Source of the DNA: Hellea sp.
GTDB lineage: Bacteria; Pseudomonadota; Alphaproteobacteria; Caulobacterales; Maricaulaceae
Direction: 5' to 3'
Assembly (NCBI GenBank): GCA_023300105.1
Contig: JALZWM010000046.1
Coordinates: 1 to 56,045 of the forward strand
Length of the DNA stretch: 56,045 bases
Each line of letters opens with the position of its first letter. Position 1 is the first letter of the stretch. A program made the position numbers and the translations under genes. This document shows positions 22,484-38,530 of the stretch, in pieces. The notes under the pieces are model-generated. The model did not search any database and was not told where the DNA came from. It worked only from the letters and a program-made list of their open reading frames with translations.

Positions 22484-23239
22484 CTAGACAGCCGTAAAAC
22501 GCGTTCTGGCCATTTTGCTATCTCCAAATAGCTCTCTACAGATTTCATAATCTTCAGGTGTATCGAGCTCTGCCCATTTTGAGCCTTGGATATTTGTCGT
22601 ATCAATGTGAACGCCAGATTTAGCCAAACCGTCAATTGCGGAGAGATACCAGTTTTTCGTACCCGCTTCGAGTTTCATCAAGCGCTTTAATTCATCTCTG
22701 AAAATCTTTGTGCCCTCGTTCATGAACCGCAACATACCGATAGACTCGCCATTGGTATCGCCTGCTAGAAGCGTCTTGCTAATAGCTGTAAGCTGCGTCC
22801 CTTCTAAAGATACTTTCATATCGTCGCCGTCATATTGATTTTTTTTATCAATCGTAACGGTAATGTTTTTCGCAGGTGCGTTAAGCACCGTCTCAAGTAG
22901 CTTAGGACTGAATAACGTATCACCATTGATAATTAAAAAATCAGACTTCATGCTCTTACGCGCCATCCAGCAAGATGCGAGATTATCCGCAACCTGAAAG
23001 AAAGGATTATAAAGCGTTTTAACTTTTGGCCCTGTCTTACGAGACTTGATTTCTTCGCGCACAAGGTGGTCGTTAAACCCTGTCACAACAGTCGCCGTTT
23101 TGACGCCTTGCTTAAATAAAGTGTCTAATTGAAGGCTAAGAACTGTCGATACGCCAATCGGCAGGAGACATTTAGGTAAATTTGTCGTCAAAGGGAGAAG
23201 ACGCGAGCCGCGGCCCGCAGATAGAATTATAGCATGCAT
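22484..23239 (-). CDS. Sugar/alcohol-phosphate nucleotidyltransferase (LicC/IPCT-like)
   Basis: Start at the ATG at 23239 (MHAIILSAGRGSRL); the frame is open further upstream but overlaps the HAD gene. The 251 residues carry the NTP-binding LSAGRGSRLLPLTTNLPKCLLPIG, NPFFQVADNLASCWMARKSM and the metal-binding IINGDTLF, then AELDTPEDYEIC. The NPFF...NLASCWMA pattern resembles phosphocholine (LicC) and inositol-phosphate cytidylyltransferases rather than the rhamnose/glucose enzymes. A CDP-activated headgroup is therefore the likely product, used by the CDP-alcohol phosphotransferase encoded nearby. The exact substrate is not readable. Confidence 0.88.
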   Translation of the reverse strand: MHAIILSAGRGSRLLPLTTNLPKCLLPIGVSTVLSLQLDTLFKQGVKTATVVTGFNDHLVREEIKSRKTGPKVKTLYNPFFQVADNLASCWMARKSMKSDFLIINGDTLFSPKLLETVLNAPAKNITVTIDKKNQYDGDDMKVSLEGTQLTAISKTLLAGDTNGESIGMLRFMNEGTKIFRDELKRLMKLEAGTKNWYLSAIDGLAKSGVHIDTTNIQGSKWAELDTPEDYEICRELFGDSKMARTRFTAV

Positions 23240-23258
23240 GTGATTTACCGTTAGGCGA

Positions 23259-23924
23259 TTACCATTCAACAACGTCGAATTTTTCGCCTTGAGCGGCCTC
23301 CTTGAGCTTTTTATCAGCGTTTACTGCGACACCTTTGTCCGAAAAGCGTAAAATATCAAGGTCAGAGTAACTATCTGAATACATTGTGATAATTGTGAGA
23401 TTATGTTTCAACTCTGGTTTTTTTGCCAATAATTGCTTCACGCGGGCTAATTTTTCAGCCCCATAACAATTCGCTGAGGCAAATTCGGGCGCTAATTTTG
23501 CATTTTCCCACTTCATATTCGTGGCGACCCACAATGAAATTTCTAATTTTTTAGCTATCGGTGCAACAATCAAATCTACGGCTGCGCTTGCAATAATCAA
23601 CGTATCACCTTGAGATCTATGATATTCTAGGGCCTTTAACGCGCCAGGACGAAGTCCTGTTTCAACCTCGGACGCCGCAAAGTCTTCTGCGAGTTGCTGC
23701 ATATACGCCTGCGGCTTACCCACCATACTCCACCGCATCATAGCTTGCTTGACGCGAATACGTGGTAGTTTACCGCGTTTATACCGCCACTGTGTCAATC
23801 CCGCCGAGACCGCTAGCGGCAACCAGAGCCAAGGTTTATGCTTTACATTTTGAACAACAAAGCGGCCCCAAGTCCCTTTTTTTGTTAAGGTGTAATCCAA
23901 ATCAAATATTGCAATATCAGCCAT
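23259..23924 (-). CDS. HAD-IB family phosphatase (SerB-like)
   Basis: A 221-residue HAD-superfamily hydrolase: motif I FDLDYTLT with nucleophile D8 and acid D10, motif II IIASAA, a motif-II lysine region KKLEISLWVATNM, and motif III YSDSYSDLDIL. A hydrophobic stretch WLWLPLAVSAGL near residue 35 may contact the membrane. HAD-IB enzymes cut small phosphates or lipid phosphates such as phosphatidylglycerophosphate. It lies 3 bases after the flippase/CDP-alcohol transferase fusion and 19 bases before the nucleotidyltransferase start, so it likely acts in the same headgroup pathway. Confidence 0.9.
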   Translation of the reverse strand: MADIAIFDLDYTLTKKGTWGRFVVQNVKHKPWLWLPLAVSAGLTQWRYKRGKLPRIRVKQAMMRWSMVGKPQAYMQQLAEDFAASEVETGLRPGALKALEYHRSQGDTLIIASAAVDLIVAPIAKKLEISLWVATNMKWENAKLAPEFASANCYGAEKLARVKQLLAKKPELKHNLTIITMYSDSYSDLDILRFSDKGVAVNADKKLKEAAQGEKFDVVEW

Positions 23925-23927
23925 GTA

Positions 23928-26441
23928 CTAGGCGTCCATCCAGCTCTGAAGAGGTTTTTTTGAAAATGCCCCTACAAGAACAACGAATATGTTGAAGGCA
24001 ATACAAACCCATGTCCAGATAGCAACAGCATAAAAGCCCCATTTACCCGCTTGAGGGAACCAAGGTATCAAGCAAATCCCGACCATGAAGATAAATACAT
24101 TTGGGTTCCGGCGCGCCGTGATAAAGCGAAGCGCAGAATTAATCGGCCGCCAGACATGTATATGAAACCCATGCTGCGCGATAAATATACCTTCAATAAC
24201 TCGGTCAACAACATACCCAATCCAAATAGCAACCAAAGCCAATGTCATAATGTCGGGGAACATGTCATGCCACATGAAGTGCCCCCCCAATCCGACAAAC
24301 CACGCCCAGTACCAAAACGGAGGATGAATTAAGTCTATGCCGTGGTCATAGATATTTCCCCAGCTAGAATAGGTCATGGTGGTTCGAGCCAATTTGCCGT
24401 CAACTGTATCTAAAAATGTCATCATCCAGCCCGTTAGAAAACCTAGGAACCATTGACCTTGCCAAAAATAATAGAGCGCGGCGAACATCAAAACCAAGCC
24501 AATTGTTGTCACCATATTAGGTGTCAGGCGGAGAGCCGCACATAATCGCGTCACATAAAATGCGGGAATAGGCCAAATCCACTTCGTCACAAAGTCGGTT
24601 ATCCCTTTATAGGAGCTATCAAATTGCCGTCTCATAATTTCGACAGGGGGCGTATTATCTATGTCGAGTGCATAAGGTGGTTCTTTTTTTCTCAAAACCT
24701 TGTTGTATCCATCATCAAGTTCATCAGGGACTACAGAGTCAATTTCCATGTTCTCTAAAGCAGTTTCATTTTGACCAATTAAATTTTCTGCCACGTCGTC
24801 CGCGACACCATTCACGGCTATAATTTTTCCATTTATCACAAGCGCAGACTTGTCGCGCGAAACAAAGGCTCTGGCTAAGGCGGATGATAAAACCCACCCT
24901 ACGCCGATATGAACAACTTTTTCTGACGGGTTTTGAGCTACACCCGCTTTTTTAAAAGCGCGCCCTTGCCATTTTGCAATAGGCATGCCCCAAATTTTGG
25001 CAGATGAATTGCCAATTAAATTAAGAGATGGTGCAAGCCTTGGCGATGTTTCTTCCTGTGTTTTTATTGTTCCTGTTATTTGCTCTTGAATTTTACGATT
25101 AAGCGTCGCACGCGCCAAGAAAACAACAAAGAAAACGGCACAAGCATTTGCTAATAAAGCCGCCCATCCGGGGGCCATTTTACCAATCGTATAACTAAAA
25201 ATAAAGAAGGCTACGATATAAATGATGACCCCTGTTCCTCGCGCATAAATAGCCCGCTCAGGGCGATCCGCTGCATAAAGCACGGGGTAAAGCGGGGCAG
25301 CAATTCCTGTCACGGCCGCAGCAAGGACCAGTAATGAGGCTAACGGCGCAGCGGGTAGATAATCTTCAGAGAAGACAAGCTTAAGAATGTCTGGTCCAGC
25401 AAAGCTTATAAAAACAGACATTGCCAAGCCAAATCCTAAAAGCATGATAGCCGTACGGGTCACAAGGCGCCAAATTTTAGAGGCCTTGCCCAAACTAACC
25501 ATTTTTGCCAACTCTGGATAAATAACCTGATCTAGTAACTTAAAACTTTCAGATAATAATTTCGACGCTTCCTCGGCGATCCGGTAAACCGCCACCCAAG
25601 CAGATCCAAAAACGCCCATAACAAGAAGAACCGGAAGATGCACATTTGCCGCTGCCAAAGTCGCATCAATATTTGCTTTAATAGTGAAAGCCCAAAGCCC
25701 TTCGCCAGGGTTTCGCAAAGAGGACCCCGCTGTAAAAACAGGCTTTAATAAATGGCGACGTTTCAACTCTAACAGGCCCATTATAGGTAAAAATATATAA
25801 GCCAGTAGGGAGCCTACGAACCAAGCCATGAGGAACCCTACAAACTCAGTACCGGACCATACAGCAATAAGAACACCAATAAACCGTGTTGCTGGCATAA
25901 TTAAACCTTGAGCAGCTAAGACATGAAACTTATCAAAAAGCCGGAAAACTCCAATTGACGTCCCGCGTTGGCGAAAGAGGACTAACAGGCAATAAACGCC
26001 AACCAATCTACCAAGAATATCCATGTCAAAAGCAGCCCACCCAGTGAATTTCCCTGGAAAATATCCAGAAATTTTCATAAATCCTGTAAAAATTAAAACA
26101 GATAATAAGAAGGCAAGGATGGCGCCTAACGCGTCTAATTTAATGCTAAAGTTCAAAAGACTTGCAAGTTTCTCATTTGCATTTTCTTTAACCGCATCTG
26201 TTCCAAACCTAATGATAGACTGCCAAGATTGAAACGTTGCAACCTCTGAAAAGAACAACATATAAGCATGTAGAAAAATGATTGTTCCAAGTTCAGCTGG
26301 GCTAAGAACTTTCGCAGCGATAGACAAACTGCCAAGGCCGAAAACGGCGCTCAGTGTTTTGGAGCCAAGCATCAAGCCCGCATTTGTAACAATACGTTTT
26401 CCAACGCCGTGTTTTGACGTAACTGACAGATCAGGCGTCAT
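23928..26441 (-). CDS. Fusion: polysaccharide-type flippase + degenerate NTase-like linker + CDP-alcohol phosphotransferase
   Basis: An 837-residue protein in three parts. Residues about 10-450 are a MOP/Wzx-type flippase with about a dozen membrane helices. Residues about 470-600 are soluble; they begin NSSAKIWGMPIAKWQGRAFKKAG and resemble the decayed nucleotidyltransferase-like domain that precedes some CDP-alcohol phosphotransferases. Residues about 605-837 are a CDP-alcohol phosphotransferase with its complete catalytic pattern: D678, D681, G682, A685, R686, G695, D699 and D703 (DxxDGxxAR-x8-GxxxDxxxD). The frame is continuous with no sign of a frameshift. Joining headgroup transfer to lipid flipping in one chain is unusual. 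It sits in a tight minus-strand operon with NTP transferases, a phosphatase and the ceramide-synthase-like gene. Confidence 0.92.
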   Translation of the reverse strand: MTPDLSVTSKHGVGKRIVTNAGLMLGSKTLSAVFGLGSLSIAAKVLSPAELGTIIFLHAYMLFFSEVATFQSWQSIIRFGTDAVKENANEKLASLLNFSIKLDALGAILAFLLSVLIFTGFMKISGYFPGKFTGWAAFDMDILGRLVGVYCLLVLFRQRGTSIGVFRLFDKFHVLAAQGLIMPATRFIGVLIAVWSGTEFVGFLMAWFVGSLLAYIFLPIMGLLELKRRHLLKPVFTAGSSLRNPGEGLWAFTIKANIDATLAAANVHLPVLLVMGVFGSAWVAVYRIAEEASKLLSESFKLLDQVIYPELAKMVSLGKASKIWRLVTRTAIMLLGFGLAMSVFISFAGPDILKLVFSEDYLPAAPLASLLVLAAAVTGIAAPLYPVLYAADRPERAIYARGTGVIIYIVAFFIFSYTIGKMAPGWAALLANACAVFFVVFLARATLNRKIQEQITGTIKTQEETSPRLAPSLNLIGNSSAKIWGMPIAKWQGRAFKKAGVAQNPSEKVVHIGVGWVLSSALARAFVSRDKSALVINGKIIAVNGVADDVAENLIGQNETALENMEIDSVVPDELDDGYNKVLRKKEPPYALDIDNTPPVEIMRRQFDSSYKGITDFVTKWIWPIPAFYVTRLCAALRLTPNMVTTIGLVLMFAALYYFWQGQWFLGFLTGWMMTFLDTVDGKLARTTMTYSSWGNIYDHGIDLIHPPFWYWAWFVGLGGHFMWHDMFPDIMTLALVAIWIGYVVDRVIEGIFIAQHGFHIHVWRPINSALRFITARRNPNVFIFMVGICLIPWFPQAGKWGFYAVAIWTWVCIAFNIFVVLVGAFSKKPLQSWMDA

Positions 26442-27189
26442 GAAATGACCTTGTTAAAATGGCTTCAACCAAAACTTTATCTGATGGTTTATCAACATCG
26501 ATAGCAGCCTCGGCGATAGGAATAAGAATGGGTTTAGCTGTAATTTTTAAGCGAGTCGAAGCATATTCAAAAGCCCCGCTCAAACTTAATCGTCCCAACG
26601 CATATTTGAATAAAACACCCCAGCCTAAGCTACGAGCCAGTTTAAGCGGTTGCTTACGCAGATGCTGCGCGTCTTTCCAGAATTCAATTGCGGCTAACCC
26701 GCGCGTATTATTTATGTAGAACAAATTACACCCAGAAACAGAACGGTCAGAAAACTTCAGATAGGTCCGCTTTACATTAGGATAAGCAGGCTGAATAATT
26801 GTTTTATCGGCAAAGCCTACACAAAAGTCTGCACCTGAACGGCGAGCTTGACTTAGAAAACTTTCAAGCATTTGCGGTGTTAAGAGCGGATGGTCAGCAG
26901 TTGTAATAAGACATGGAAAATCAATACCCGCGCGAAGTGCTGCATCTGTGCTATCTGCAGGTCCCGAGCCCGACGGGGACTGCGCCAGACGCTCATCATA
27001 AGCCGCGTCAAAGCCGCTAACATGAAACGGCTTTATAAGCCCTCCGTCATCTAAGGCGCTCAAAACATAATCTATCATAGGTTGGCCATTAATAGGAATG
27101 ACCGCTTTGCGCTCAACGCCAGATGCCGAGCAAAGCGGGTCAACTATGCCTTCACGTTGTCCCGCTAATATCAAAACTGAAACGCTCAT
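26431..27189 (-). CDS. MobA-like NTP transferase
   Basis: A 252-residue protein of the NTP_transf_3 type: VLILAGQREGIVDPL at the N-terminus, ERKAVIPINGQPMIDYVLSAL for the nucleotide and lysine site, and LITTADHPLLTPQML for the metal-binding aspartate. MobA itself guanylylates molybdopterin, but relatives make nucleotide-activated alcohols. The context favours a lipid headgroup. It overlaps the fusion gene by 11 bases and the upstream acyltransferase gene by ATGA, so all three are translationally coupled. Confidence 0.87.
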   Translation of the reverse strand: MSVSVLILAGQREGIVDPLCSASGVERKAVIPINGQPMIDYVLSALDDGGLIKPFHVSGFDAAYDERLAQSPSGSGPADSTDAALRAGIDFPCLITTADHPLLTPQMLESFLSQARRSGADFCVGFADKTIIQPAYPNVKRTYLKFSDRSVSGCNLFYINNTRGLAAIEFWKDAQHLRKQPLKLARSLGWGVLFKYALGRLSLSGAFEYASTRLKITAKPILIPIAEAAIDVDKPSDKVLVEAILTRSFHDA

Positions 27190-28340
27190 CCCAAAAGCCG
27201 TTTCTCATACATGCGGTATGTTTTATACGGAACAGCGCTAGCTTGCTCGCATATTGAAATCATCCCAGCATTATCTTCCAAAATCCAAGAGAGTTCGCAA
27301 TGCGTAAACCCTTTTTGGCGCGCCGCCTCGAAAACTTTTTCAGATAGCGCGGCGACAACAGACAAACCTGTACGCGTGTTATGAAACTCCCTTCGCAGTC
27401 CCATAAGCGGGATACGGGCTTGCTTCACACCACTGACTTTTAATCGCCACAATAGTTTCGCCCAGCCAAAGGGGAATAAATTTCCTTTTATATCTCGTAT
27501 CGCCTCGTTCAAATCTGGTATCATCCAAATATAAGCAATAGGCTCGCCCTTATATTCTCCAACCCACAGACCTTCTTTGAACATAATGGGTTTTATTTCC
27601 TTCGCCATATGCTTGATTTGAGCATCCGAAAACGGAACAAAGCCCCAGTTTTCTGACCACGCATCGTTAAAAATATCCATAACAGTTCGGACTTCATTCA
27701 TGAAGTTAGCGCCCATTGGACGAATGTTGATATCTTTGTTGCGTTCAGCTGACTTACACATCGCTTGAGCGATTTTAGGACGGGGGTAACCCGCCTTCAA
27801 TTCGGATTGATACGCGAGCATATCCGTAGCTTTTTGAAAACCTTGTGCTTCAATCATTTCTTTATAATCAGCGCGGCCATGAGGCATCATCACAACAGGC
27901 GGCGTCTCAAACCCCTTAATCAATAACCCGCATTCTTCGTTCACACTCCATTGCGCAGGCCCAATAAGAGTTACAACGCCGCGTTCTTCCACCCAGCTTT
28001 GCGCGGCAGACAATAGAGCTGCACCGGTTTCTAGATTAGCTTCACAATCAAAAAAACCAAAAAATCCAGCTTTTTCGTTTCGGTGAGCATCATGCGCAGG
28101 ATTGGTAAAGGCCGCGATACGGCCAACGAAGACTCCATCCCTTTTGGCTAAAAACAATCGACGATTTTTGGTAGCTGCTGCGCCTGGGTTTTTTTTGGGA
28201 TTAAGGTGCGCTGCCCGTTCAAATTTTAACTGAGGTCTCCAAGCTGGATCATTAGCATAGATAACATCTGGCATGGCTAAGAACTGACGTGTCAGCTTTG
28301 CCCCAACAGCAGGCAATATTTCTAATGATGATGACTGCAC
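27186..28340 (-). CDS. bcerS: GNAT-fold acyltransferase, probable bacterial ceramide synthase
   Basis: A 384-residue protein from a GTG start backed by GGAGG 5 bases upstream. Conserved segments are AMPDVIYANDPAWRPQLKFE, FGFFDCEANLETGAALLSAA, LIGPAQWSVNEECGLLIKGF, ENWGFVPFSDAQI and the acyl-CoA-type KVFEAARQKGFTHCELSWILEDN. In Caulobacter the ceramide synthase bCerS is a GNAT-fold acyltransferase encoded close to spt, and this gene has a matching type, length and location. It would N-acylate the sphingoid backbone (3-oxo-sphinganine) from acyl-CoA. The assignment rests on family and context; other GNAT substrates are possible. Confidence 0.75.
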   Translation of the reverse strand: MQSSSLEILPAVGAKLTRQFLAMPDVIYANDPAWRPQLKFERAAHLNPKKNPGAAATKNRRLFLAKRDGVFVGRIAAFTNPAHDAHRNEKAGFFGFFDCEANLETGAALLSAAQSWVEERGVVTLIGPAQWSVNEECGLLIKGFETPPVVMMPHGRADYKEMIEAQGFQKATDMLAYQSELKAGYPRPKIAQAMCKSAERNKDINIRPMGANFMNEVRTVMDIFNDAWSENWGFVPFSDAQIKHMAKEIKPIMFKEGLWVGEYKGEPIAYIWMIPDLNEAIRDIKGNLFPFGWAKLLWRLKVSGVKQARIPLMGLRREFHNTRTGLSVVAALSEKVFEAARQKGFTHCELSWILEDNAGMISICEQASAVPYKTYRMYEKRLLG

Positions 28341-28369: not shown

Positions 28370-28921
28370 CTAATCTTTTTTCTTGGGGTCAACTAGATTG
28401 ATAGTAATATCTGCGCCGTTCATAGGGACATCAAAATTCGTTTCCGACCATTTAGGCAGGCGTAATGATTCAATTATAGGATTATTTGAAAGGCCGTATG
28501 GCTCTTTGGGTTTAAAGTTCCATTTTTTATCAAATTTACGGTCACCATCTTTATCATGATAGCTAGAAATAGCATAGGGTCCTGGCATGGCAACATTCAC
28601 ACACACAACAATCGGCGCGTCTTCGGCAGGCACACGAATGCGCCGTAATTTACCTGATTTTTTCATGAAATCTTTTTCTCCGAAAAGCTCGACCTTAACC
28701 ATGCCAGTTTTGGTTGCGCCAATCAAAGTGACTCTAATCTGCAAGCTTCCAGCAATACACGCATCAGCAACATCACGTTCATAAAGCTCTAAGCCGCGTT
28801 CAATACCTAATTGGGAGAGAGGCTCTGCAGCTTTATCATCGCCAGCAATCGCCGAAGATGACAAAGCAGCAATAATAGAAAAACCCAAGAAAAATCTGTT
28901 AAGAAAATTTGCTTTCATCAT
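28370..28921 (-). CDS. DUF2141 secreted protein
   Basis: A 183-residue protein with a signal peptide MMKANFLNRFFLGFSIIAAL ending at SAIA, from either ATG at 28921 or 28918. The mature region has the DUF2141 elements: VTLIGATKTGMVKVELFGEKDF, VCVNVAMPGPYAISSYHDKDGDRKFD and PKEPYGLSNNP. This is a small beta-sandwich-like periplasmic domain of unknown function. It heads the minus-strand operon containing the acyltransferase and the fusion protein, and it is divergent from lptF across about 100 bases, which must hold both promoters. Confidence 0.88.
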   Translation of the reverse strand: MMKANFLNRFFLGFSIIAALSSSAIAGDDKAAEPLSQLGIERGLELYERDVADACIAGSLQIRVTLIGATKTGMVKVELFGEKDFMKKSGKLRRIRVPAEDAPIVVCVNVAMPGPYAISSYHDKDGDRKFDKKWNFKPKEPYGLSNNPIIESLRLPKWSETNFDVPMNGADITINLVDPKKKD

Positions 28922-29022: not shown

Positions 29023-30231
29023 ATGGGACGACTTAACCGATATCTTTTAAAGCAAGCAATCACCAGCATAGGTGGCTTAGTCATATTTGCTTGCCTTGTT
29101 CTCTTACTTGAACGCTTGCTTCGCATTTTTGAAGTTGTTTCCAATTCAACGAACCCTGCAGGTGACGCAGGTTCCATGGTCATTAACCTCCTCCCTTATT
29201 ATCTTGGGATGGCAGTACCTATGGCCTTGTTATTGGGCGTGACCATTACAATCGACCGGTTTAGCCGCTCAAGTGAACTCACAGCAGCAATGGGCGCGGG
29301 TGTCTCTTTATTTCACATGACGAAACCTTTTATTTTAATAGCTGTTATATTATCTGGCATCACGGTTTTCATAGAAGGCTATATGCAACCCGTCGGGCGG
29401 TATAATTACCGCCAAGTCGTCCATGTCGTTAAACAACAATCATTCACGGCTGCGTTACGAGAGGGCACTTTCACCAAAGTTGGTAACAGAACTTTTTTCG
29501 CAGGCACGGAATCAGAAGGGGCAGGCATTGGTCCAATCTTTATTTACGAGCGCATGGTAAATGATAAAAACGAATATATTCGCACTGTTCTAACGACGGC
29601 TAATGAAGGGCAACTCATTGTCCAAGAAAAAACGCAAGAACCTGTCCTGCAACTCGCAGCAGGTCAATCATACACAATTGAGCAAGGACGCACTCTTAAT
29701 GACGATCTTAGTTTTGAAAGCAGTGACGTTGCAGGCACTGCCGACATTAATAGGTTTAGATCTCGCGGCGATGATGAACGGGAAATGACATCCCTTGAAC
29801 TTTTTCAAAACCGTAACGGTACATTATTTGATACCATTGACCAAAATACGAATGATGCAGCCTTGCATCTCCGGCTTGCCCGCTCAGCTTTATTACTTAT
29901 CCTGCCTTTCATTGCCGTGCCTTTTGGATTGAATTACGGGCGCAACCCCTCTTCGGCAGGCATATTTATCGGCGTCGTTCTTTTAGTGTCCTTACAAAAA
30001 GCTTTAGAATTTGCGCAAAGCCTTGGGGCAAGCGGGACTATTCCGCCTTGGGCAGGCATATGGGGCATCATTGGATTACTTGCCGCCTTCGCAGCTTATA
30101 TTTTCCGAAAAAGCGCCTATAAAATGGGGCAACCCCCCCTCACATCTTTTCAGCATTACATCAGTCATTTGCAGGGACTCTTAAAAGAAAAACTCGCGGC
30201 TCTGCGCGGCACAAAGGCTAATGTTAGCTGA
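29023..30231 (+). CDS. LptF/LptG (YjgP/YjgQ) family permease, first of a pair
   Basis: A 402-residue membrane protein of the YjgP/YjgQ family. Three membrane helices come first (about residues 15-35, 53-75, 101-122), then a beta-jellyroll periplasmic domain (about 130-285), then three more helices (about 288-310, 315-333, 346-365). The start MGRLNRYLLKQ and AVPMALLLGVTITIDRFSRSSELTAAMGAG are typical. The canonical pair joins LptB2 to push LPS across the periplasm. This pair lies inside a sphingolipid locus, so sphingolipid export is an alternative role. It overlaps the next gene by one base. Confidence 0.93.
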   Translation: MGRLNRYLLKQAITSIGGLVIFACLVLLLERLLRIFEVVSNSTNPAGDAGSMVINLLPYYLGMAVPMALLLGVTITIDRFSRSSELTAAMGAGVSLFHMTKPFILIAVILSGITVFIEGYMQPVGRYNYRQVVHVVKQQSFTAALREGTFTKVGNRTFFAGTESEGAGIGPIFIYERMVNDKNEYIRTVLTTANEGQLIVQEKTQEPVLQLAAGQSYTIEQGRTLNDDLSFESSDVAGTADINRFRSRGDDEREMTSLELFQNRNGTLFDTIDQNTNDAALHLRLARSALLLILPFIAVPFGLNYGRNPSSAGIFIGVVLLVSLQKALEFAQSLGASGTIPPWAGIWGIIGLLAAFAAYIFRKSAYKMGQPPLTSFQHYISHLQGLLKEKLAALRGTKANVS

Positions 30232-31310
30232 TGTTTAAATTTCTCGGATATTTATCAAAAAGTTTTTTAACGACATGGCTAATGACCGTCTTTGGTTTCC
30301 TTGTTTTGATTGGCCTATTGGACAGCCTTGCTAACGGCGGTGATATCTTATCTGGAGATGGAGGATTTTCGGATACGTTCCGGTATATGATGCTACGGGC
30401 GCCTGTGATTTTTGATCGTATATTTATCTTCACAATCATTGTGGCGATACTGCTCACCTATGTCAGACTTATTCGTCAACACGAACTTGTGGCCCTGCTT
30501 GGTTTTGGAATTTCGGTGCCCAAACAAATCATGTTATTAACGCCTATTGTTCTCTCAGCTGGATTCACATCGATAACCATTATTGATTTCACGATTGCCC
30601 CTGCGGTGAGATCACTTCAGACTTGGGGTATCGGTGAGTATAAAATTAAAAACATTACCCCTGAACACCCTTTATGGCTTGAAGATAATGGCCGCATTAT
30701 TCGCGCAGAAAAACGTGTCAGTTATGAAGAATTGGGCAATATTGAAATTTATGAACGCTCCTCAACTGGGCAGGTTCAAGAGATTATTTGGGCCCAAAAA
30801 GCGGTCTATAAAAACCCCAACTGGGAATTAACTGACGTTCAAGCCCTCCCTATAAAAGGTGAAGACGGCGCCGCGCGTCTGTCACTGCGGTCAGGTAAAC
30901 CCATGATGTGGGAAACTTCGCAAACCCCTATAACCATCGCACGCCTCGCCGCTGAACCCCGAGACTTGTCTATGTCAGAAATGCGTCAATTTAAACGTCG
31001 TGGAAATTCAGGGGCCAAACCACGCTTTGCTTATAGCTTTTGGCATGCCCACCGTTTTACGCGGCCCTTGGCAGCTTGGATACTCTTACTCTGTGCTGTC
31101 CCGCTTATGCAGCGTACGGGACGTCAAGATACAGGTGATAAGGCCTTAATTACAGGTATCAGCATGGGGTTTATTTTCCTTATTGTAGATGGCGCAATGG
31201 CAACCTTTGCAACATCAGGCGGTATGGGCGTAACCCCTGCAATTGCAGGTCCTTTGATTGTCTTTGCACTCATTGGGTCGCATCTATGTTTACAGGCTGA
31301 AAGCCTGTAA
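30231..31310 (+). CDS. LptF/LptG (YjgP/YjgQ) family permease, second of a pair
   Basis: A 359-residue partner of the preceding permease, with the same layout: MFKFLGYLSKSFLTTWLMTVFGFLVLIGLLD as first helix, FDRIFIFTIIVAILLTYVRLIRQHELVALLGFGIS containing the coupling-helix region after helix two, a jellyroll domain (WLEDNGRIIRAEKRVSYEELGNIEIYE), and three C-terminal helices. It is translationally coupled to the first permease and followed after about 23 bases by a lipid kinase gene. Confidence 0.92.
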   Translation: MFKFLGYLSKSFLTTWLMTVFGFLVLIGLLDSLANGGDILSGDGGFSDTFRYMMLRAPVIFDRIFIFTIIVAILLTYVRLIRQHELVALLGFGISVPKQIMLLTPIVLSAGFTSITIIDFTIAPAVRSLQTWGIGEYKIKNITPEHPLWLEDNGRIIRAEKRVSYEELGNIEIYERSSTGQVQEIIWAQKAVYKNPNWELTDVQALPIKGEDGAARLSLRSGKPMMWETSQTPITIARLAAEPRDLSMSEMRQFKRRGNSGAKPRFAYSFWHAHRFTRPLAAWILLLCAVPLMQRTGRQDTGDKALITGISMGFIFLIVDGAMATFATSGGMGVTPAIAGPLIVFALIGSHLCLQAESL

Positions 31311-31333: not shown

Positions 31334-32260
31334 GTGTCCGTTGTTGCTATTTCAAACGCAAATGCGAAAAAAGTCGCAAAAAATGGCTCGTCTCTAACGC
31401 CAAACCTGCTGCCTGAAGACGCGCTACACTTTAATACAAAATCCCCAGACGACCTACGCCCTCTTTTTACGCAAGCGGCTGAGACAGGCTTAGACCATCT
31501 CGTGATAGAAGGCGGTGACGGGACAGTTCGGACGATTATCTCAACGCTACTAAACACTTATAATGAAGACCAAGCTCTGCCTGCAATTTCGATTCTGCCC
31601 CGGGGAACAACAAATCAAATAGCCAGAAACCTCGGCGTTAAAAAACCCGCTGACTTAACAGCAATTTTTAACGGTAAATTCCGTACTATCACTATGCCTT
31701 TAGTGGAAATAAAATCCAAAAATTTAGAGACCAATTATGGCTTCTTGTTCTCAACGGGCGCCCTGCCCCATGTTAGCCGCTTCGCCCAAGATAAAATAAA
31801 TGCCAACGGTGTCGGCGGCGGTAGCGCTGTTGTTGGCGCGGTTCTTAAAGCCGTCACCAGTGACAGGGCCGCTTTAATGCCCCCCGTAAAACACAATATA
31901 AAAGGCATATTGGGTCACGGTGAAACCATCCTTGATCATGAAGGCCTTGCTCTTGGAACTGTTATGACAACGCTCCCAACATTAATGATGGGCCTTGACC
32001 CCTTTTGGGGCGAAGAAGACGCGCCGCTCCGCGTCACATGGGTCGAAGCAGAAAGCCTGAAATTAGGCAGAACAATTGCGGGTGTCTGGGCGGGCCGCAA
32101 ACAAAACCGAAGTGTTGACGGCTATCACAGCCATAATGTTGATAGCCTGAGTCTATTGACTGAAGCCCCGGCAACACTGGATGGAGACTTTATAGATATT
32201 GCAGGGCACGAACTTAAAATTTCGGCCTCGCGTCCTGTTACGTTTTGGATGCCACAATGA
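31334..32260 (+). CDS. DAGK-family lipid kinase, probable ceramide kinase (CpgB-like)
   Basis: A 308-residue protein from a GTG start. The DAGK catalytic motif GGDGT is at residues 60-64, and ISILPRGTTNQIARNLGV matches the LPxGTxN segment. The C-terminal beta-sandwich half ends GDFIDIAGHELKISASRPVTFWMP. The family phosphorylates diacylglycerol, sphingosine or ceramide using ATP. In Caulobacter a DAGK-family protein in the sphingolipid locus (CpgB) is a ceramide kinase, so ceramide 1-phosphate is the favoured product here; diacylglycerol is the alternative. It overlaps the Tam41-like gene by ATGA. Confidence 0.82.
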   Translation: MSVVAISNANAKKVAKNGSSLTPNLLPEDALHFNTKSPDDLRPLFTQAAETGLDHLVIEGGDGTVRTIISTLLNTYNEDQALPAISILPRGTTNQIARNLGVKKPADLTAIFNGKFRTITMPLVEIKSKNLETNYGFLFSTGALPHVSRFAQDKINANGVGGGSAVVGAVLKAVTSDRAALMPPVKHNIKGILGHGETILDHEGLALGTVMTTLPTLMMGLDPFWGEEDAPLRVTWVEAESLKLGRTIAGVWAGRKQNRSVDGYHSHNVDSLSLLTEAPATLDGDFIDIAGHELKISASRPVTFWMPQ

Positions 32261-33165
32261 GCGCCCTCAAAGATATGCTCCGCGAAGAAACGGCGCAGCT
32301 TCCACCGCGCGTAGAAGCTGTCTGTGATATTATTGAGAGCCGCCACCCCGGCCGTGTTCAAGCCTTCATCTATTATGGGTCTTCTTTGCGTGAGCTTGAT
32401 AATCCAGAGAAGATGCTCGACTTTTATGTTCTCGTTGATAGCTACCGCAAAACGCATAGCCTGATAAGAGCGGGGTTAAACGCCCTCATTCCGCCAGCGG
32501 TTTATTATGTCGAGCACACTGACGCCGACGGCGTCATGAGTACGTGTAAATACTCCATCCTATCCCTGAACGCATTTGAGCGGCGCTGTTCCTCTAAGGC
32601 GCTGCTGTCCCAAACATGGGGACGGTTTTCTCAGCCCTGCGCGCTATTACGGTCAAAATCGGGCGCGATTACTGAACGTGTTATCACCGCACGCGAAACT
32701 GCCATTCGGCATATTGCTATGGAAACGGAACCTCTTTTTGAGAACAATCCAACACCGCAAGAGTTTTGGGCGCGGGCTTTTTTTGAAAGCTACCGCACAG
32801 AGTTAAGACCTGAAAGCTCGGTTGAGCGCACAGCTGAATTTGTCGGGCGCTATCTCCCTCGTTATGAGCGTGTGTCGGGTATTTTATATACGCTAAATGA
32901 CGGCAGAATTAAGCTACCAAAAACGCGGCGCAAAGGGGCGAAACTGCGCTGGTTTTTCCGACGCATCCTCGGCAAACCCATGACCGCCATTCGCGTTATC
33001 AACAGCGCCGCGACATTTGACGGCGGATTGGATTACGTCTTGCGTAAAGTCAAAAACCACTCAGGCGTCACACTTGAGCCAAGTGCGTTTCAGCGTAAGC
33101 ATCCCGTTTTTTGCTCACCCGTGTTAGGGTGGAAGCTTTGGCGGCGGGGGGCGTTTAGAAGTTAA
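32257..33165 (+). CDS. Tam41-like phosphatidate (or ceramide-phosphate) cytidylyltransferase
   Basis: Start at the ATG overlapping the kinase stop (ATGA); 302 residues. It resembles the mitochondrial CDP-diacylglycerol synthase Tam41/Mmp37. The match covers several blocks in order: AFIYYGSSLRE (36-46; Tam41 AFxYGSGV), MLDFYVLVDSYRKTHS (53-68; Tam41 DFIxxVxxPxxWH), CKYSILS (97-103; Tam41 IKYGVIS), RFSQPCALL (123-131; Tam41 RLxKPVxIL), FFESYRTELRPESSVERTAEFV (175-196; Tam41 LSYxGDxR...GExxxKxxNIV) and PRYERVSGIL (201-210). The GSS-x11-D-x5-D layout is a nucleotidyltransferase active site. It would make a CDP-lipid from CTP and a lipid phosphate delivered by the coupled kinase. The similarity is judged by eye from remembered Tam41 sequences. 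Confidence 0.72.
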   Translation: MSALKDMLREETAQLPPRVEAVCDIIESRHPGRVQAFIYYGSSLRELDNPEKMLDFYVLVDSYRKTHSLIRAGLNALIPPAVYYVEHTDADGVMSTCKYSILSLNAFERRCSSKALLSQTWGRFSQPCALLRSKSGAITERVITARETAIRHIAMETEPLFENNPTPQEFWARAFFESYRTELRPESSVERTAEFVGRYLPRYERVSGILYTLNDGRIKLPKTRRKGAKLRWFFRRILGKPMTAIRVINSAATFDGGLDYVLRKVKNHSGVTLEPSAFQRKHPVFCSPVLGWKLWRRGAFRS

Positions 33166-33174
33166 GCCCGTTTA

Positions 33175-34398
33175 TTATCCCTGTAGCTTCGCGCTCATAT
33201 CGCTCATGAGCTGACCTTGGTTGTCTTTCAGGTCGCTAAAGGCTTTCAGGATGATATTGATGTCATCCTCAGTATGAGCGGCAGAAAGGCTGATGCGTAG
33301 CAAGCTTGAGCTTTGCGGCGTACCAGGCGGAACTGCGAGATTCACATAAACCCCGTTTTCCATCAAACCATTCCATTCCATCGCGGCAACGACTTCATTG
33401 GGGCGGCGAACCGCGATAACAGGGCTGGCATCCGCGCACAGATCATATCCCATCTCGGATAAACCTTTATGTAGCTGCTGTCCCCGTGCCTTTAGGTTCG
33501 CTCTTAAAGCTTCGCCTTGTTTGACTTTCTCAACGGCGGCAAGCGCCGCACAAATATTGGCAGGTGTTGCAGAGGCCGTGAACATATATGGCCGCATGAC
33601 TTTGCGCAGGATTTCAAATTCAGGATGGCGCGACGCACAAAACCCGCCGACAGAGGCCAGTGATTTTGAGAACGTCCCAGAGATAAAGTCGACTTTATCC
33701 AATACGCCTTGCTCTTCGGCGAGGCCGCAACCTGTGGGGCCAAAGACGCCGTAACTATGCGCTTCGTCGATAAACAGGTATCCGCCGTGATTATGCGTGA
33801 CTTCAACAAATTCATCAATTGGCGCCACATCACCGAACATGGAATAAAGACCTTCGATGACAACAAGCGCGTTGCCGCCTTCGATTTCGCCTTGGCGTTT
33901 TAGTCGCTTATCTAAATCTTCGGGATTATTGTGACGGAAGCGTATAGTCGAGGCCCCCGTAAGGCGCGTGCCGTCAATAATACAAGCATGTGCGTCCGCG
34001 TCCATAAAGACAACATCTTTATCACCCGCAAGACCTGAGATAGCAGAGAGGTTGGTTTGGTAACCCGTTGTAAAAACAATACAGCTTGGCATACCCAAAT
34101 GGTCGGCCAAGGATTTTTCCAAATCAATATGCTCGGAGTAAGTTCCATTAGCGATACGTGAACCCGTTGTGCCTGTCCCGTGATTATCAACGGCGTCTTT
34201 GGCGGCTTTCATACAGTCTTCGTCAAAGGTCAGACCCAGATAATTATTTGTCCCCGCCAGTAATATTTCCCGGTTACCAATGCGGGCGCGTGTCGTGCTG
34301 ATGATATCATCAAACTGAAGGCCAAGGGCATCGCGGCCCATCTTCATCATAACGTCAACGCGGGCCTGAAGCGGCGCATATTTATCAAACAGGGACAT
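33175..34398 (-). CDS. spt: Serine palmitoyltransferase (alpha-oxoamine synthase family)
   Basis: A 407-residue PLP enzyme. The PLP lysine is K245 in SGTFSKSLASVGGF, D211 and H214 lie in DEAHSYG, and HGTGTTGSRIANGTYSEHIDLE is the AONS/SPT active-site segment, with the TTGSRIANG form typical of SPT. It condenses serine with an acyl thioester to give 3-oxo-sphinganine, the first step of sphingolipid synthesis. The dedicated ACP, reductase and acyl ligase genes directly upstream support SPT over 8-amino-7-oxononanoate synthase. It is convergent with the Tam41-like gene with only 9 bases between. Confidence 0.9.
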   Translation of the reverse strand: MSLFDKYAPLQARVDVMMKMGRDALGLQFDDIISTTRARIGNREILLAGTNNYLGLTFDEDCMKAAKDAVDNHGTGTTGSRIANGTYSEHIDLEKSLADHLGMPSCIVFTTGYQTNLSAISGLAGDKDVVFMDADAHACIIDGTRLTGASTIRFRHNNPEDLDKRLKRQGEIEGGNALVVIEGLYSMFGDVAPIDEFVEVTHNHGGYLFIDEAHSYGVFGPTGCGLAEEQGVLDKVDFISGTFSKSLASVGGFCASRHPEFEILRKVMRPYMFTASATPANICAALAAVEKVKQGEALRANLKARGQQLHKGLSEMGYDLCADASPVIAVRRPNEVVAAMEWNGLMENGVYVNLAVPPGTPQSSSLLRISLSAAHTEDDINIILKAFSDLKDNQGQLMSDMSAKLQG

Positions 34399-34407
34399 AT
34401 ATAACTC

Positions 34408-34653
34408 TTATGCGGAGGTAAGTTGAATAATGGCGGTGGTTAGCTCTCCAACGGTCTTGATGTCGGACACCATTTCCATAGGGATAGATATATCATAATG
34501 GTCTTCAAGCCCCATGATAATGTCAAACACAGCGGTCGAGTCGACCTCAAGATCTGTCATAATACCGCTACTCATTTCAATCGGGCGGTTCTTAGGATTG
34601 TAAGGCTTTAAGAGCTCACAAATTTTATCATATACTTCGTCGCGTGTTGGCAT
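34408..34653 (-). CDS. acpR: Acyl carrier protein for sphingolipid synthesis
   Basis: An 81-residue acidic helical protein with the phosphopantetheine attachment serine S39 in LEVDSTAVFDIIMGLEDHYDISIP. The VDS-x-x-VFD pattern is that of the specialised ACPs that sit beside spt in Caulobacter and relatives, instead of the DSLxxVE of fatty acid synthase ACP. It probably carries the acyl chain loaded by the acyl-AMP ligase and delivers it to SPT. It lies 9 bases before spt. Confidence 0.9.
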   Translation of the reverse strand: MPTRDEVYDKICELLKPYNPKNRPIEMSSGIMTDLEVDSTAVFDIIMGLEDHYDISIPMEMVSDIKTVGELTTAIIQLTSA

Positions 34654-34664
34654 AGTCTTTTACT

Positions 34665-35579
34665 TTACTTACTTATTTCATACGAAGCTGCAGTTTCCCG
34701 CAGCGCGTCAATAAAGGGTGTCGCGCCCTGAATCACATCTTCACTTGACCAGTCCTCATAACGGAACTCCCTCAACTTGCCTAGAGTCAAGTGACCGAGG
34801 CCAAAGAGCCGTGATGTCACGGATGTGAGCGCTGCAATTGTCTTAATAACAGGAATTGGAATAGGGAGCACCTTAACAGATATGCCCAAAGCCGCTTCTG
34901 CATCAGCGGCAAAGTCTGGCCACGTCAAAGCGGGGACCGAACAGGGCGTAACAGTTTTTTCATCATAATCGCCAATCACCGCGCGCGCTGCAATATCATT
35001 GGCTAAATCTTTGGCATAAACCATCGCCATTGTCCGTGTCTGCCACCCCTTGCCGCCAACAACGGGGAGTTTTCCTTTGGTGATAAAATCAAAGAAAGGC
35101 TTTGTCGCCTCATCACCGGGTCCAATAACGGCGGGCGCTCGAATAATGGCAAGCGCCCCTGTGTAGGCGGCTTTCACAGCGCCCTCGCCTGCCTTTTTAG
35201 AGGCAGCATAATCAGATAATTGCGGTTGGTTCGCGGTTTGAGACGAGAGGAGAATAAAACGTTTCACGCCAGCTGCTTCAGCGGCAGCGGCCATATTACC
35301 CGCCGCGTCTTTGTTCGTTGCCATTATGATAGTGCGCGTTTTAGCTTTGATCAGTCCCGCCATATGAAGAACAGTATCAGCACCTTCAACTAACGCCGCG
35401 TCACAATCCCCTAGACCGCCTTTGCAGATAGACAAGTTATCATGCTTAATATCCGAAAGTTTTGAAGGTGTTCTCGCGAGCGCTCTAACAGAATACCCTG
35501 CGGCCAAGAGCGAATTAATAACGTGGCGGCCAACAAATCCTGTCCCGCCCGTTACAGCTATTAGTCCCAATTGAGGCAT
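34665..35579 (-). CDS. cerR: NAD(P)-dependent epimerase/reductase, CerR-like
   Basis: A 304-residue extended short-chain dehydrogenase: Rossmann motif GGTGFVGRHV (11-20), S112-S113 and the catalytic pair Y124-x3-K128 in DYAASKKAGE. In the Caulobacter sphingolipid operon a protein of this type, CerR, is needed to reduce the 3-keto group of the sphingoid backbone or ceramide. The position between the acyl ligase and the ACP supports that role. It starts 8 bases after the acyl ligase gene. Confidence 0.88.
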   Translation of the reverse strand: MPQLGLIAVTGGTGFVGRHVINSLLAAGYSVRALARTPSKLSDIKHDNLSICKGGLGDCDAALVEGADTVLHMAGLIKAKTRTIIMATNKDAAGNMAAAAEAAGVKRFILLSSQTANQPQLSDYAASKKAGEGAVKAAYTGALAIIRAPAVIGPGDEATKPFFDFITKGKLPVVGGKGWQTRTMAMVYAKDLANDIAARAVIGDYDEKTVTPCSVPALTWPDFAADAEAALGISVKVLPIPIPVIKTIAALTSVTSRLFGLGHLTLGKLREFRYEDWSSEDVIQGATPFIDALRETAASYEISK

Positions 35580-35587
35580 TCAGGCGT

Positions 35588-37339
35588 TTAGCTAGCTTCC
35601 GTGGACACGATATCCAAAGGGCTATCAGCTTGCAGATCGAGGATTTTGCCTTTGAGATATTTATCCTTCACGCGGGCGCGGGAGAGTTTCCCCGAAGACG
35701 TGATAACCATTGTACTGCGCGGCACTAATTGGAGCTTAACTGGCACACCAACTTCGAGGCGGATAGCCGCCATGACAGCTTTGTAAATTTCGTCGAGCAA
35801 CTGTGGGTCGCGAGTCCGGCATTCAAGCAGAAGCATAATTTCCTTTTCGTCACCAATGCCGCCCATCGCGAAAGAGCAAGCCCGTCCACATCGGTGCGGC
35901 GCCGCGGCTTGCGCGGCCCATTCAATATCTTGCGGCCAAATATTACGGCCATGCCAAAGAATAAGGTCTTTAAACCGCCCTGTCACAACAAGCTGATCTT
36001 CAAGCCAATACCCTAAGTCACCCGTATCAAGCCAACCGTCGGCGCTAAAGCAAGCTTCAGTCGCTTGCGTATTACGGAAATAACCCGGTGATACGCTCGG
36101 CCCTTTCAGGCATATGCGGCCAACTTTATTACCGTCCAAAACATTGTCATCAAAATCACGAATTTCGATGACATGCTCAGGCAGCACCTTGCCGCAGGCC
36201 ACAAATGTGCGGCGATGCTCAGGCTTTGTCAGTTCAGTCGCCTCAACGGCTTCGGATGTGCGCTCATAGCGGTCCATATCTATTGTGTGCTTTAAAAGAC
36301 CTTGCCCCATAGGCGCAAATGTTGCCGCCAATGTTGTTTCCGCAAGACCATAACTTGGCGTGAAAGCCCCCCGCACAAAGCCCATATCGCCGAAAAGGTC
36401 TTCAAACTCGGTAAGAGGTTCGGGGCGCACCATGTCGCCGCCAATGCCAGCAGCTCGCCAACTTGATAAATCAAGTTCACGGTCTCTACGCCAACGGCGA
36501 ACGCAAAGCTCATATCCAAATGTTGGAGAATAAGAGAGCGTGCCTTTGTGGTCAGATATAAGCTGTAACCACGAAATAGGACGGCGCGTAAAATCATTCG
36601 GATCCATAAAGTCTACGCTGATTTGCGAGACCATCGGGGTCAACATAAAACCAATTAGGCCCATATCATGATACAGCGGCAACCAACTTGTGCAGCGATC
36701 ATTTTCGACGACTTGCAAGCCGTACTTAGAAATACCGTGGCAATTTGCCATTACAGTGGACTGCTTGCCGGTAATGCCCTTGGGAGAACTAGATGAACCA
36801 GAAGAATACTGAATATAACACATATCATCTTTATTGAAGGGACGAGTTTCTTCGCCAGCTGGCAGATTTTCCAACTCTTCAAACGTCATTACGGGTATAG
36901 CTTGGTCATTGAGCGCAGAACTCATAATGGGTTCCATCGACGCGGGACAGAAGAGTGCGTGAAAATCACCCGTATCGGCCATGCGCTGCAATTGACGCTC
37001 ATAGGAACTACGCCCTCCAAGCGTGACAGGCAATGGCAATGGCGCCGGGACGAGGCCTGCATATTGGCAAGCCATGAATATGATAGCAAATTCGGGTGTT
37101 GAGACGGCAGCAAGCCCAATGCGCGCGTCTTTGTCTGCAAACACAACGAGCCGTTTTGCGAGCTCAACAGCTTTCTCTCTTAGTTCTGAATAAGGCAGAA
37201 CTGTCTTTATGTTTGCTTTACCATCAAAATAGTTAAACCCTGTTTCGCACGTCGCGGCATAATCCAGGGCCTCGCAAAGCGTATCAAAGTCAGCATAGCG
37301 GATGTTATTACCGCGCAAGGTCGGTGTCGGTTGTGTCAT
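35588..37339 (-). CDS. aasR: Fatty acyl-AMP ligase / acyl-ACP synthetase, AasR-like
   Basis: Start at the ATG at 37339 (MTQPTPTLRG); a TTG just before it is ignored. The 583-residue protein is an ANL-superfamily adenylating enzyme: ATP-phosphate loop YIQYSSGSSSSPKGIT, LPLYHDMGLIGFMLTP, PSYGLAETTLAATF, TGDLGYWLEDQLVVTGRFKDLILWHGRNIWPQDIE. The YHDMGLIG and GRNIWPQDIE features are those of fatty acyl-AMP ligases, which transfer to ACP rather than CoA. It likely loads AcpR for SPT. It is the promoter-proximal gene of the four-gene minus-strand operon. Confidence 0.9.
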   Translation of the reverse strand: MTQPTPTLRGNNIRYADFDTLCEALDYAATCETGFNYFDGKANIKTVLPYSELREKAVELAKRLVVFADKDARIGLAAVSTPEFAIIFMACQYAGLVPAPLPLPVTLGGRSSYERQLQRMADTGDFHALFCPASMEPIMSSALNDQAIPVMTFEELENLPAGEETRPFNKDDMCYIQYSSGSSSSPKGITGKQSTVMANCHGISKYGLQVVENDRCTSWLPLYHDMGLIGFMLTPMVSQISVDFMDPNDFTRRPISWLQLISDHKGTLSYSPTFGYELCVRRWRRDRELDLSSWRAAGIGGDMVRPEPLTEFEDLFGDMGFVRGAFTPSYGLAETTLAATFAPMGQGLLKHTIDMDRYERTSEAVEATELTKPEHRRTFVACGKVLPEHVIEIRDFDDNVLDGNKVGRICLKGPSVSPGYFRNTQATEACFSADGWLDTGDLGYWLEDQLVVTGRFKDLILWHGRNIWPQDIEWAAQAAAPHRCGRACSFAMGGIGDEKEIMLLLECRTRDPQLLDEIYKAVMAAIRLEVGVPVKLQLVPRSTMVITSSGKLSRARVKDKYLKGKILDLQADSPLDIVSTEAS

Positions 37340-37409
37340 CAATTATATCCCGCTTCGAACGAACACCTCCGGATAAGTTTACAGATGGGGCATTCTGTCA
37401 AAAAAATAT

Positions 37410-37588: not shown

Positions 37589-38530
37589 ATGAACGCACTT
37601 ATTGACCCTCGTAAATTTCAAAATCCGTTACTTACTGCTAAAGGTGAAAAACGGGCATCGGTCTTCTTTAAAGACTTAACAACGCTCTGGTTCAATTCAG
37701 GATCGCTCTGTAATATTGAATGTGCCAATTGTTATATCAAAAGCAGCCCCACAGCCGACCATTTTGTTTATCTAACGCCAGAGGACATGGCCCCTTATCT
37801 GGATGAGATAGACGAGCTTGGATATGGCCAAATTGAAATTGCCTTCACGGGAGGCGAGCCTTACCTCAACCCTCACATGATCCGTCTCTCTGAGATGGCG
37901 CTTGAACGCGGTCATGATCTTCTTATTTTAACCAATGCCATGAAACCCATGATGAGACCGCGGGTTCAAAAAGCTCTTCTCGATCTTCACGCTCGCTATC
38001 CAGATAAAATGACATTGCGCGTAAGTTTGGACCATTTCAGCCAAGACGGTCACGACCAAGAACGCGGCAATGGCAGTTTTGCGATTGCTCTGAAAGGTAT
38101 GAAATGGCTAACTGAGCATGCGTTTAAGCTCAATATCGCGGGGCGTTCGATGTTTTCTGAAAGCGAAAAAGCGGCTCGGATTGGCTACGGCACGCTGATT
38201 GAAAATGAAGGCTGGGATATCGATGCGAATGACCCTGCCATCACGATTTTATTTCCAGAAATGGATGAAGACGTAGATGTTCCCGAAATCACAAATGCCT
38301 GCTGGGGAATTCTTGATGTTCACCCTGACAGTATGATGTGTTCCTCATCTCGTATGATTGTCAAACGCAAAGGCGAAGAAAAGCCTGCCGTTCTGGCCTG
38401 CACCCTTCTTTGGGATGATCCGCAGTTTGAAACGGGAAAGACTTTAAAAGAAAGCCTCGGCCCGGTAAAACTCAACCATCCGCATTGTTCAAAATTTTGC
38501 GTCCTAGGCGGCGCAAGCTGCTCGGCTTAG
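37589..38530 (+). CDS. Radical SAM protein with C-terminal cysteine cluster
   Basis: A 313-residue protein with the radical SAM cluster motif CNIECANC (C41, C45, C48; CxxxCxxC) and the SAM-binding FTGGEPYLN. The C-terminal part has further cysteines (NACWGIL, MMCSSSR, VLACTLL, then HCSKFCVLGGASC), which suggests an auxiliary iron-sulfur site as in SPASM/twitch enzymes. The substrate is unknown. It is transcribed away from the sphingolipid operon across a 250-base region with marked regulatory repeats, so a shared regulator is possible. Confidence 0.88.
   Translation: MNALIDPRKFQNPLLTAKGEKRASVFFKDLTTLWFNSGSLCNIECANCYIKSSPTADHFVYLTPEDMAPYLDEIDELGYGQIEIAFTGGEPYLNPHMIRLSEMALERGHDLLILTNAMKPMMRPRVQKALLDLHARYPDKMTLRVSLDHFSQDGHDQERGNGSFAIALKGMKWLTEHAFKLNIAGRSMFSESEKAARIGYGTLIENEGWDIDANDPAITILFPEMDEDVDVPEITNACWGILDVHPDSMMCSSSRMIVKRKGEEKPAVLACTLLWDDPQFETGKTLKESLGPVKLNHPHCSKFCVLGGASCSA

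Follow-up and report, generated by a model that had tools for sequence, protein, structure and literature searches.

The stretch of Hellea sp. DNA analysed here (the window, 56,045 nucleotides) carries a lipid kinase gene that runs directly into a second gene. An earlier note on the sequence had read the second product as a cytidylyltransferase resembling mitochondrial Tam41 and coupled to a ceramide-kinase-like enzyme. This raises the question of what the second enzyme is, which lipid phosphate it acts on, and whether it bears on the origin of mitochondrial Tam41.

The gene pair and the surrounding cluster

Both open reading frames were found where the earlier note had placed them, and the stop codon TGA of the kinase gene overlaps the start codon ATG of the second gene as ATGA (32257-32260). 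A Pfam search detected a DAGK catalytic domain in the kinase (PF00781, E 5.9e-16). The 302-aa protein alone had no Pfam or NCBIfam match, and a PDB search with the single sequence was unhelpful. It is confirmed that the second gene is not a chance open reading frame, since it is conserved in the class and in the order with its gene order kept. The relevant features of the window are as follows.

22487..23320, minus strand: open frame holding a CpgD ortholog (CTP:phosphoglycerate cytidylyltransferase; 44% identity to the CpgD frame of Caulobacter, E 1.5e-69; bounds of the frame, not the exact start)
23928..26441, minus strand: fusion of a flippase (CC_1166 counterpart) and a CpgA-type CDP-alcohol phosphotransferase (PF01066 and Caulobacter comparison)
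26431..27189, minus strand: MobA-like NTP transferase, counterpart of CC_1153 (PF12804 and Caulobacter locus comparison)
27186..28340, minus strand: bacterial ceramide synthase-type acyltransferase, counterpart of CC_1154 (38%, E ~1e-87)
29023..30231, plus strand: LptF2-type transporter permease (PF03739 and Caulobacter locus comparison)
30231..31310, plus strand: LptG2-type transporter permease (22% identity to the Caulobacter counterpart, a weak match)
31334..32260, plus strand: lipid kinase, CpgB-type ceramide kinase with DAGK_cat domain (GTG start, 308 aa, PF00781)
32257..33165, plus strand: CpgC ortholog, Tam41-fold nucleotidyltransferase, proposed CTP:ceramide-1-phosphate cytidylyltransferase (ATG at 32257, 302 aa)
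33175..34398, minus strand: serine palmitoyltransferase Spt, convergent to cpgC (NF047599, E 9.4e-167)
34408..34653, minus strand: acyl carrier protein of the ceramide pathway (45% identity to the ACP in the corresponding position of the Caulobacter locus)
34665..35579, minus strand: NAD-dependent epimerase/reductase, counterpart of CC_1164 (domain match and Caulobacter locus comparison)
35588..37342, minus strand: fatty acyl-AMP ligase, counterpart of CC_1165 (domain match and Caulobacter locus comparison)

The Caulobacter references were two genomes that match exactly 4 and 5 of 8 published NA1000 primers and that we take, on these exact matches, as Caulobacter close to C. crescentus. Within one genus of the window's order, four genomes, these two among them, match exactly a primer placed on the start of Caulobacter cpgD (primer: PMC12275187). 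The Caulobacter locus runs from the flippase through the acyl-AMP ligase, epimerase, ACP and Spt to the convergent CpgC, CpgB and CpgA and, further on, to LptF2, LptG2, CerS, CC_1153 and CpgD, which is the published order from CC_1166 to CC_1152 (PMC11324152). The run ligase-epimerase-ACP-Spt/CpgC-CpgB is common to the window and Caulobacter, and the window also has orthologs of the flippase, CpgA, LptF2, LptG2, CerS, CC_1153 and CpgD. The second gene product matches Caulobacter CpgC over residues 1-296 (30-32% identity, E 2e-33 to 2e-38). The two genes are thus orthologs of cpgC (CC_1161) and, for the kinase, of cpgB, and both belong to the ceramide-phosphoglycerate (CPG/CPG2) cluster known from Caulobacter.

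Further features were noted in and beside the window's cluster. In the 837-aa fusion protein (23928-26441), residues 15-449 match separate flippases and residues ~450-836 form the CpgA-type CDP-alcohol phosphotransferase; the two parts are separate genes in most relatives, and a genome of the same genus has its PF01066 match in an open frame of similar length (846 aa). A gene for a radical SAM protein (37589-38530, 313 aa) adjoins the acyl-AMP ligase gene. A DUF2141 protein gene lies inside the cluster (28370-28921) and is shared by a minority of the related loci.

Structural and sequence relation to Tam41

The AlphaFold2 model of the window's CpgC (pLDDT 91.7, pTM 0.88) was compared with the PDB. 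The top five Foldseek matches are all solved Tam41 enzymes (E 1.1e-7 to 3.6e-5), the best being the Firmicutes Tam41 with CTP (7ecd, E 1.1e-7), and S. pombe Tam41 is also among them. VIA-align superposed the model on Tam41 with Z-scores of 17.9, 15.8 and 15.2 over 209-222 residues covering both domains, and the next structural family, the aminoglycoside nucleotidyltransferases, reached Z up to 7.7. Sequence identity between the window's CpgC and Tam41 in the structural alignment is ~14%. Structure prediction, one of the checks proposed in the earlier note, thus bears out the Tam41 fold (Z 17.9 and 15.8, Foldseek E 1.1e-7).

The other proposed check, a search with the PF09139 HMM, gave a divided result: 17 of 49 CpgC relatives match the profile (best 2.3e-9), and the window protein itself has no match at the curated cut-off, nor does anything genome-wide even at E 10. 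A profile built from 49 CpgC members found S. pombe Tam41 in a PDB profile search (E 5.7e-5), while an earlier 27-row profile had not reached Tam41 in the PDB; hhalign comparisons of the CpgC family with Tam41 gave 2.9e-5 and 7e-4. The window protein is therefore a distant relative of Tam41 only, outside formal PF09139 membership. The Tam41 fold of CpgC and a distant common ancestry of CpgC and Tam41 are well supported.

YGS, Asp55, Lys98, Trp121, Arg123, Gln126, Glu182, Arg184 and Glu186 are invariant in 49/49 aligned members. The position two residues after Asp55 is a tyrosine (Tyr57) in 46/49, so that the second catalytic acid is absent there; Tam41 likewise lacks this second acid of ordinary nucleotidyltransferases (PMC11646218). 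The match to Tam41 had been described as holding block by block. All five peptides named (YGSS, DFYVLVD, CKYS, ESYRTELRPES and RYERVSGIL) occur in the translation, and the correspondence holds for YGS, the Asp of DF, the K of KY, R-x-x-P (RFSQP) and Y-x-x-[DE]-x-R; RYERVSGIL is without a clear Tam41 counterpart in the alignments. With regard to an amphipathic membrane-binding helix, C-terminal helices are predicted in the model, and the region past residue 254 does not align to Tam41.

Distribution and substrate

CpgC relatives were found in 28/240 sampled genomes of the class Alphaproteobacteria and in 61/249 sampled genomes of the order, with conserved gene order. They occur on at least 80 named contigs from Alphaproteobacteria, delta-type bacteria (including Geobacter, Desulfobacterales and NaphS2), Nitrospirales and Gammaproteobacteria. 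A kinase match (E 1e-6) lies close upstream of cpgC on the same strand in 61 of the 80 named loci listed. Both parts of the earlier note's reading, a Tam41-type fold and a coupled gene of the ceramide kinase type, are supported. In addition, 17 plasmid records (plasmids of Roseomonas, Pseudomonas, Diaphorobacter and Qipengyuania) carry homologs of CpgC, most of which are labelled hypothetical proteins, and because of these cpgC may be mobile.

Spt scored above the cut-off in 32/240 class genomes, namely in 28/28 with cpgC and in 4/212 without it (Fisher p 1.3e-32, a guide only, since species are not independent). A kinase search in the four Spt-positive, CpgC-negative alphaproteobacterial genomes gave no match in three and a marginal one in the fourth; these four may lack phosphosphingolipids. 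An ordinary CdsA is present in the window's genome. In Caulobacter, the need for cpgC in ceramide phosphoglycerate synthesis has been demonstrated (PMC11324152), and CC_1161 and CC_1160 are both required for CPG (PMC11324152, PMC12275187). Since cpgC co-occurs with Spt, the genome has its own CdsA and CPG is lost in CC_1161 mutants, the evidence points to a role of CpgC in the ceramide pathway and away from CDP-diacylglycerol synthesis, and as its substrate ceramide 1-phosphate is much more probable than phosphatidic acid. The earlier note had left the product as CDP-ceramide or CDP-diacylglycerol; activation of ceramide 1-phosphate with CTP now appears the most likely role, and CDP-diacylglycerol as product is not supported, given the CdsA in the genome and the restriction of cpgC to Spt genomes.

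Proposed reaction and alternatives

The cpgC gene, its cluster and a printed guess of nucleotide activation were already known. An InterPro CDP-DAG synthase domain in CC_1161 had led to the suggestion that it makes an NDP-activated ceramide (PMC11324152), and in later schemes CpgC converts ceramide 1-phosphate to CPG by a mechanism that they call unidentified (PMC12275187, PMC13228409). The literature that we searched held no assay of CpgC and no paper mentioning the liponucleotide CDP-ceramide. To this the present analysis contributes the orthology, gene context, fold and conserved core residues of CpgC.

We consider it probable that CpgC is the CTP:ceramide-1-phosphate cytidylyltransferase of the CPG cluster, a Tam41-fold enzyme making CDP-ceramide; the use of CTP, ceramide 1-phosphate as acceptor and CDP-ceramide as product are what we infer for it. 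The upstream kinase CpgB would supply ceramide 1-phosphate, and its ceramide kinase activity has been assayed with formation of this product (PMC10331486). CpgC would bind CTP-Mg between the nucleotidyltransferase core (YGS, single Asp55) and the second domain, where the phosphate of ceramide 1-phosphate would attack CTP at its alpha phosphate, so that CDP-ceramide is formed and pyrophosphate released. CDP-ceramide could then donate ceramide-phosphate to glycerate or phosphoglycerate, yielding CPG, and the second phosphoglycerate would be added by CpgD and CpgA.

Synthesis of CDP-glycerate by CpgD has been shown by others in Caulobacter. Caulobacter cpgD mutants keep CPG (PMC12275187), and therefore CPG is not built from CDP-glycerate and another activation is needed. 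This bears on the published alternative in which CpgC itself is the CPG synthase and couples ceramide 1-phosphate directly with glycerate or phosphoglycerate, with no free CDP-ceramide. That scheme is based on lipid profiling of mutants of Caulobacter (PMC12275187, PMC13228409), and it agrees with the lack of a known separate joining enzyme. Nevertheless we regard it as unlikely: direct joining would be energetically unfavourable without activation (PMC11324152), CDP-glycerate is not the donor, and the fold and core residues, both of the Tam41 type, are consistent with nucleotidyl transfer. It is very unlikely that CpgC is some other enzyme of the nucleotidyltransferase fold, for example one of headgroup or protein modification, that is merely Tam41-like. 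The aminoglycoside nucleotidyltransferases do rank second in the structural comparison (Z up to 7.7), but the gap to Tam41 (Z 17.9) is large, both domains are matched and the second acid is missing. Least probable of all is a CDP-diacylglycerol synthase standing in for CdsA. This activity is known for solved Tam41 enzymes, one of them from Firmicutes (PMC11646218), but the genome already has CdsA, cpgC occurs only with Spt and adjoins a ceramide kinase gene, and Caulobacter mutants lose CPG (PMC11324152).

For the preferred cytidylyltransferase reading, the joining of CDP-ceramide to glycerate is the weak point. cpgA is dispensable for CPG in Caulobacter, and a search of the two Caulobacter genomes for a dedicated CDP-ceramide-using transferase (PF01066) returned only CpgA and one other match, with no extra gene. 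Two CDP-alcohol phosphotransferase genes were seen in eleven sphingolipid loci, one copy being on the cpgB-cpgC strand and, in ten of them, another near lptG/cerS. The second phosphotransferase could be the missing CDP-ceramide-using enzyme; the Caulobacter locus and the window are without a second copy.

In the pathway that helps Caulobacter to live without LPS, the step still to be explained is how ceramide 1-phosphate becomes ceramide phosphoglycerate. The Tam41 fold with its named core residues reduces the question of the CpgC mechanism to one simple assay. If CpgC makes CDP-ceramide, the Tam41 superfamily gains a second substrate class. By a somewhat better than even chance, CpgC represents a second, sphingolipid-specific branch of this superfamily that makes CDP-ceramide in Alphaproteobacteria, delta-type bacteria, Nitrospirales and some Gammaproteobacteria.

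Implications for the ancestry of mitochondrial Tam41

The earlier note had started from the premise that Tam41 is mitochondrial and that bacteria normally use the unrelated CdsA. This is too strong, as Tam41 in bacteria has already been reported (Kimura 2022, as cited in PMC11646218). The Tam41 proteins of S. pombe and Firmicutes match each other with phmmer at E 3.7e-21, whereas CpgC is reached only by profile. A PF09139 search of 240 class and 398 phylum genomes detected no canonical Tam41, only CpgC-like outliers below the cut-off, and the tree was therefore limited to the two solved Tam41 sequences. In this quick tree the two Tam41 rows, which are partial, split from all 52 CpgC rows with an SH-aLRT of 100, on long branches, each side of the root measuring 1.96 changes per column. 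The suggested bearing on the origin of mitochondrial Tam41 was not borne out: the Tam41 pair is far closer to each other than to CpgC, the tree agrees, and the window's CpgC says little on this origin. CpgC as the ancestor of mitochondrial Tam41 found no support, the mitochondrial and Firmicutes enzymes grouping together and away from CpgC in this limited test.

Comparison with known systems

CpgC of Caulobacter crescentus (CC_1161/CCNA_01219) is alike in homology over nearly the full length, in the identity and order of its neighbours and in being a single copy. The sequences have diverged, however, and in the window cpgA is not located upstream of cpgB but is fused to the flippase gene elsewhere in the cluster. 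CdsA (PF01148) would catalyse a reaction of this kind on a lipid phosphate, but it is an unrelated integral membrane enzyme that is encoded elsewhere in this genome.

The S. pombe mitochondrial CDP-DAG synthase Tam41/Mmp37 (6ig2/6ig4) has the fold over both domains, YGS, the single Asp, the Lys of K-Y, R-x-x-P and [DE]-x-R in common with CpgC. It differs in sequence (~14% identity), and the window protein has no Pfam match and stands in a sphingolipid gene context. The Firmicutes Tam41 (7ecd) shares the fold and is the best structural match (Z 17.9), but CpgC is far more distant from it than mitochondrial Tam41 is (phmmer 3.7e-21 for the latter).
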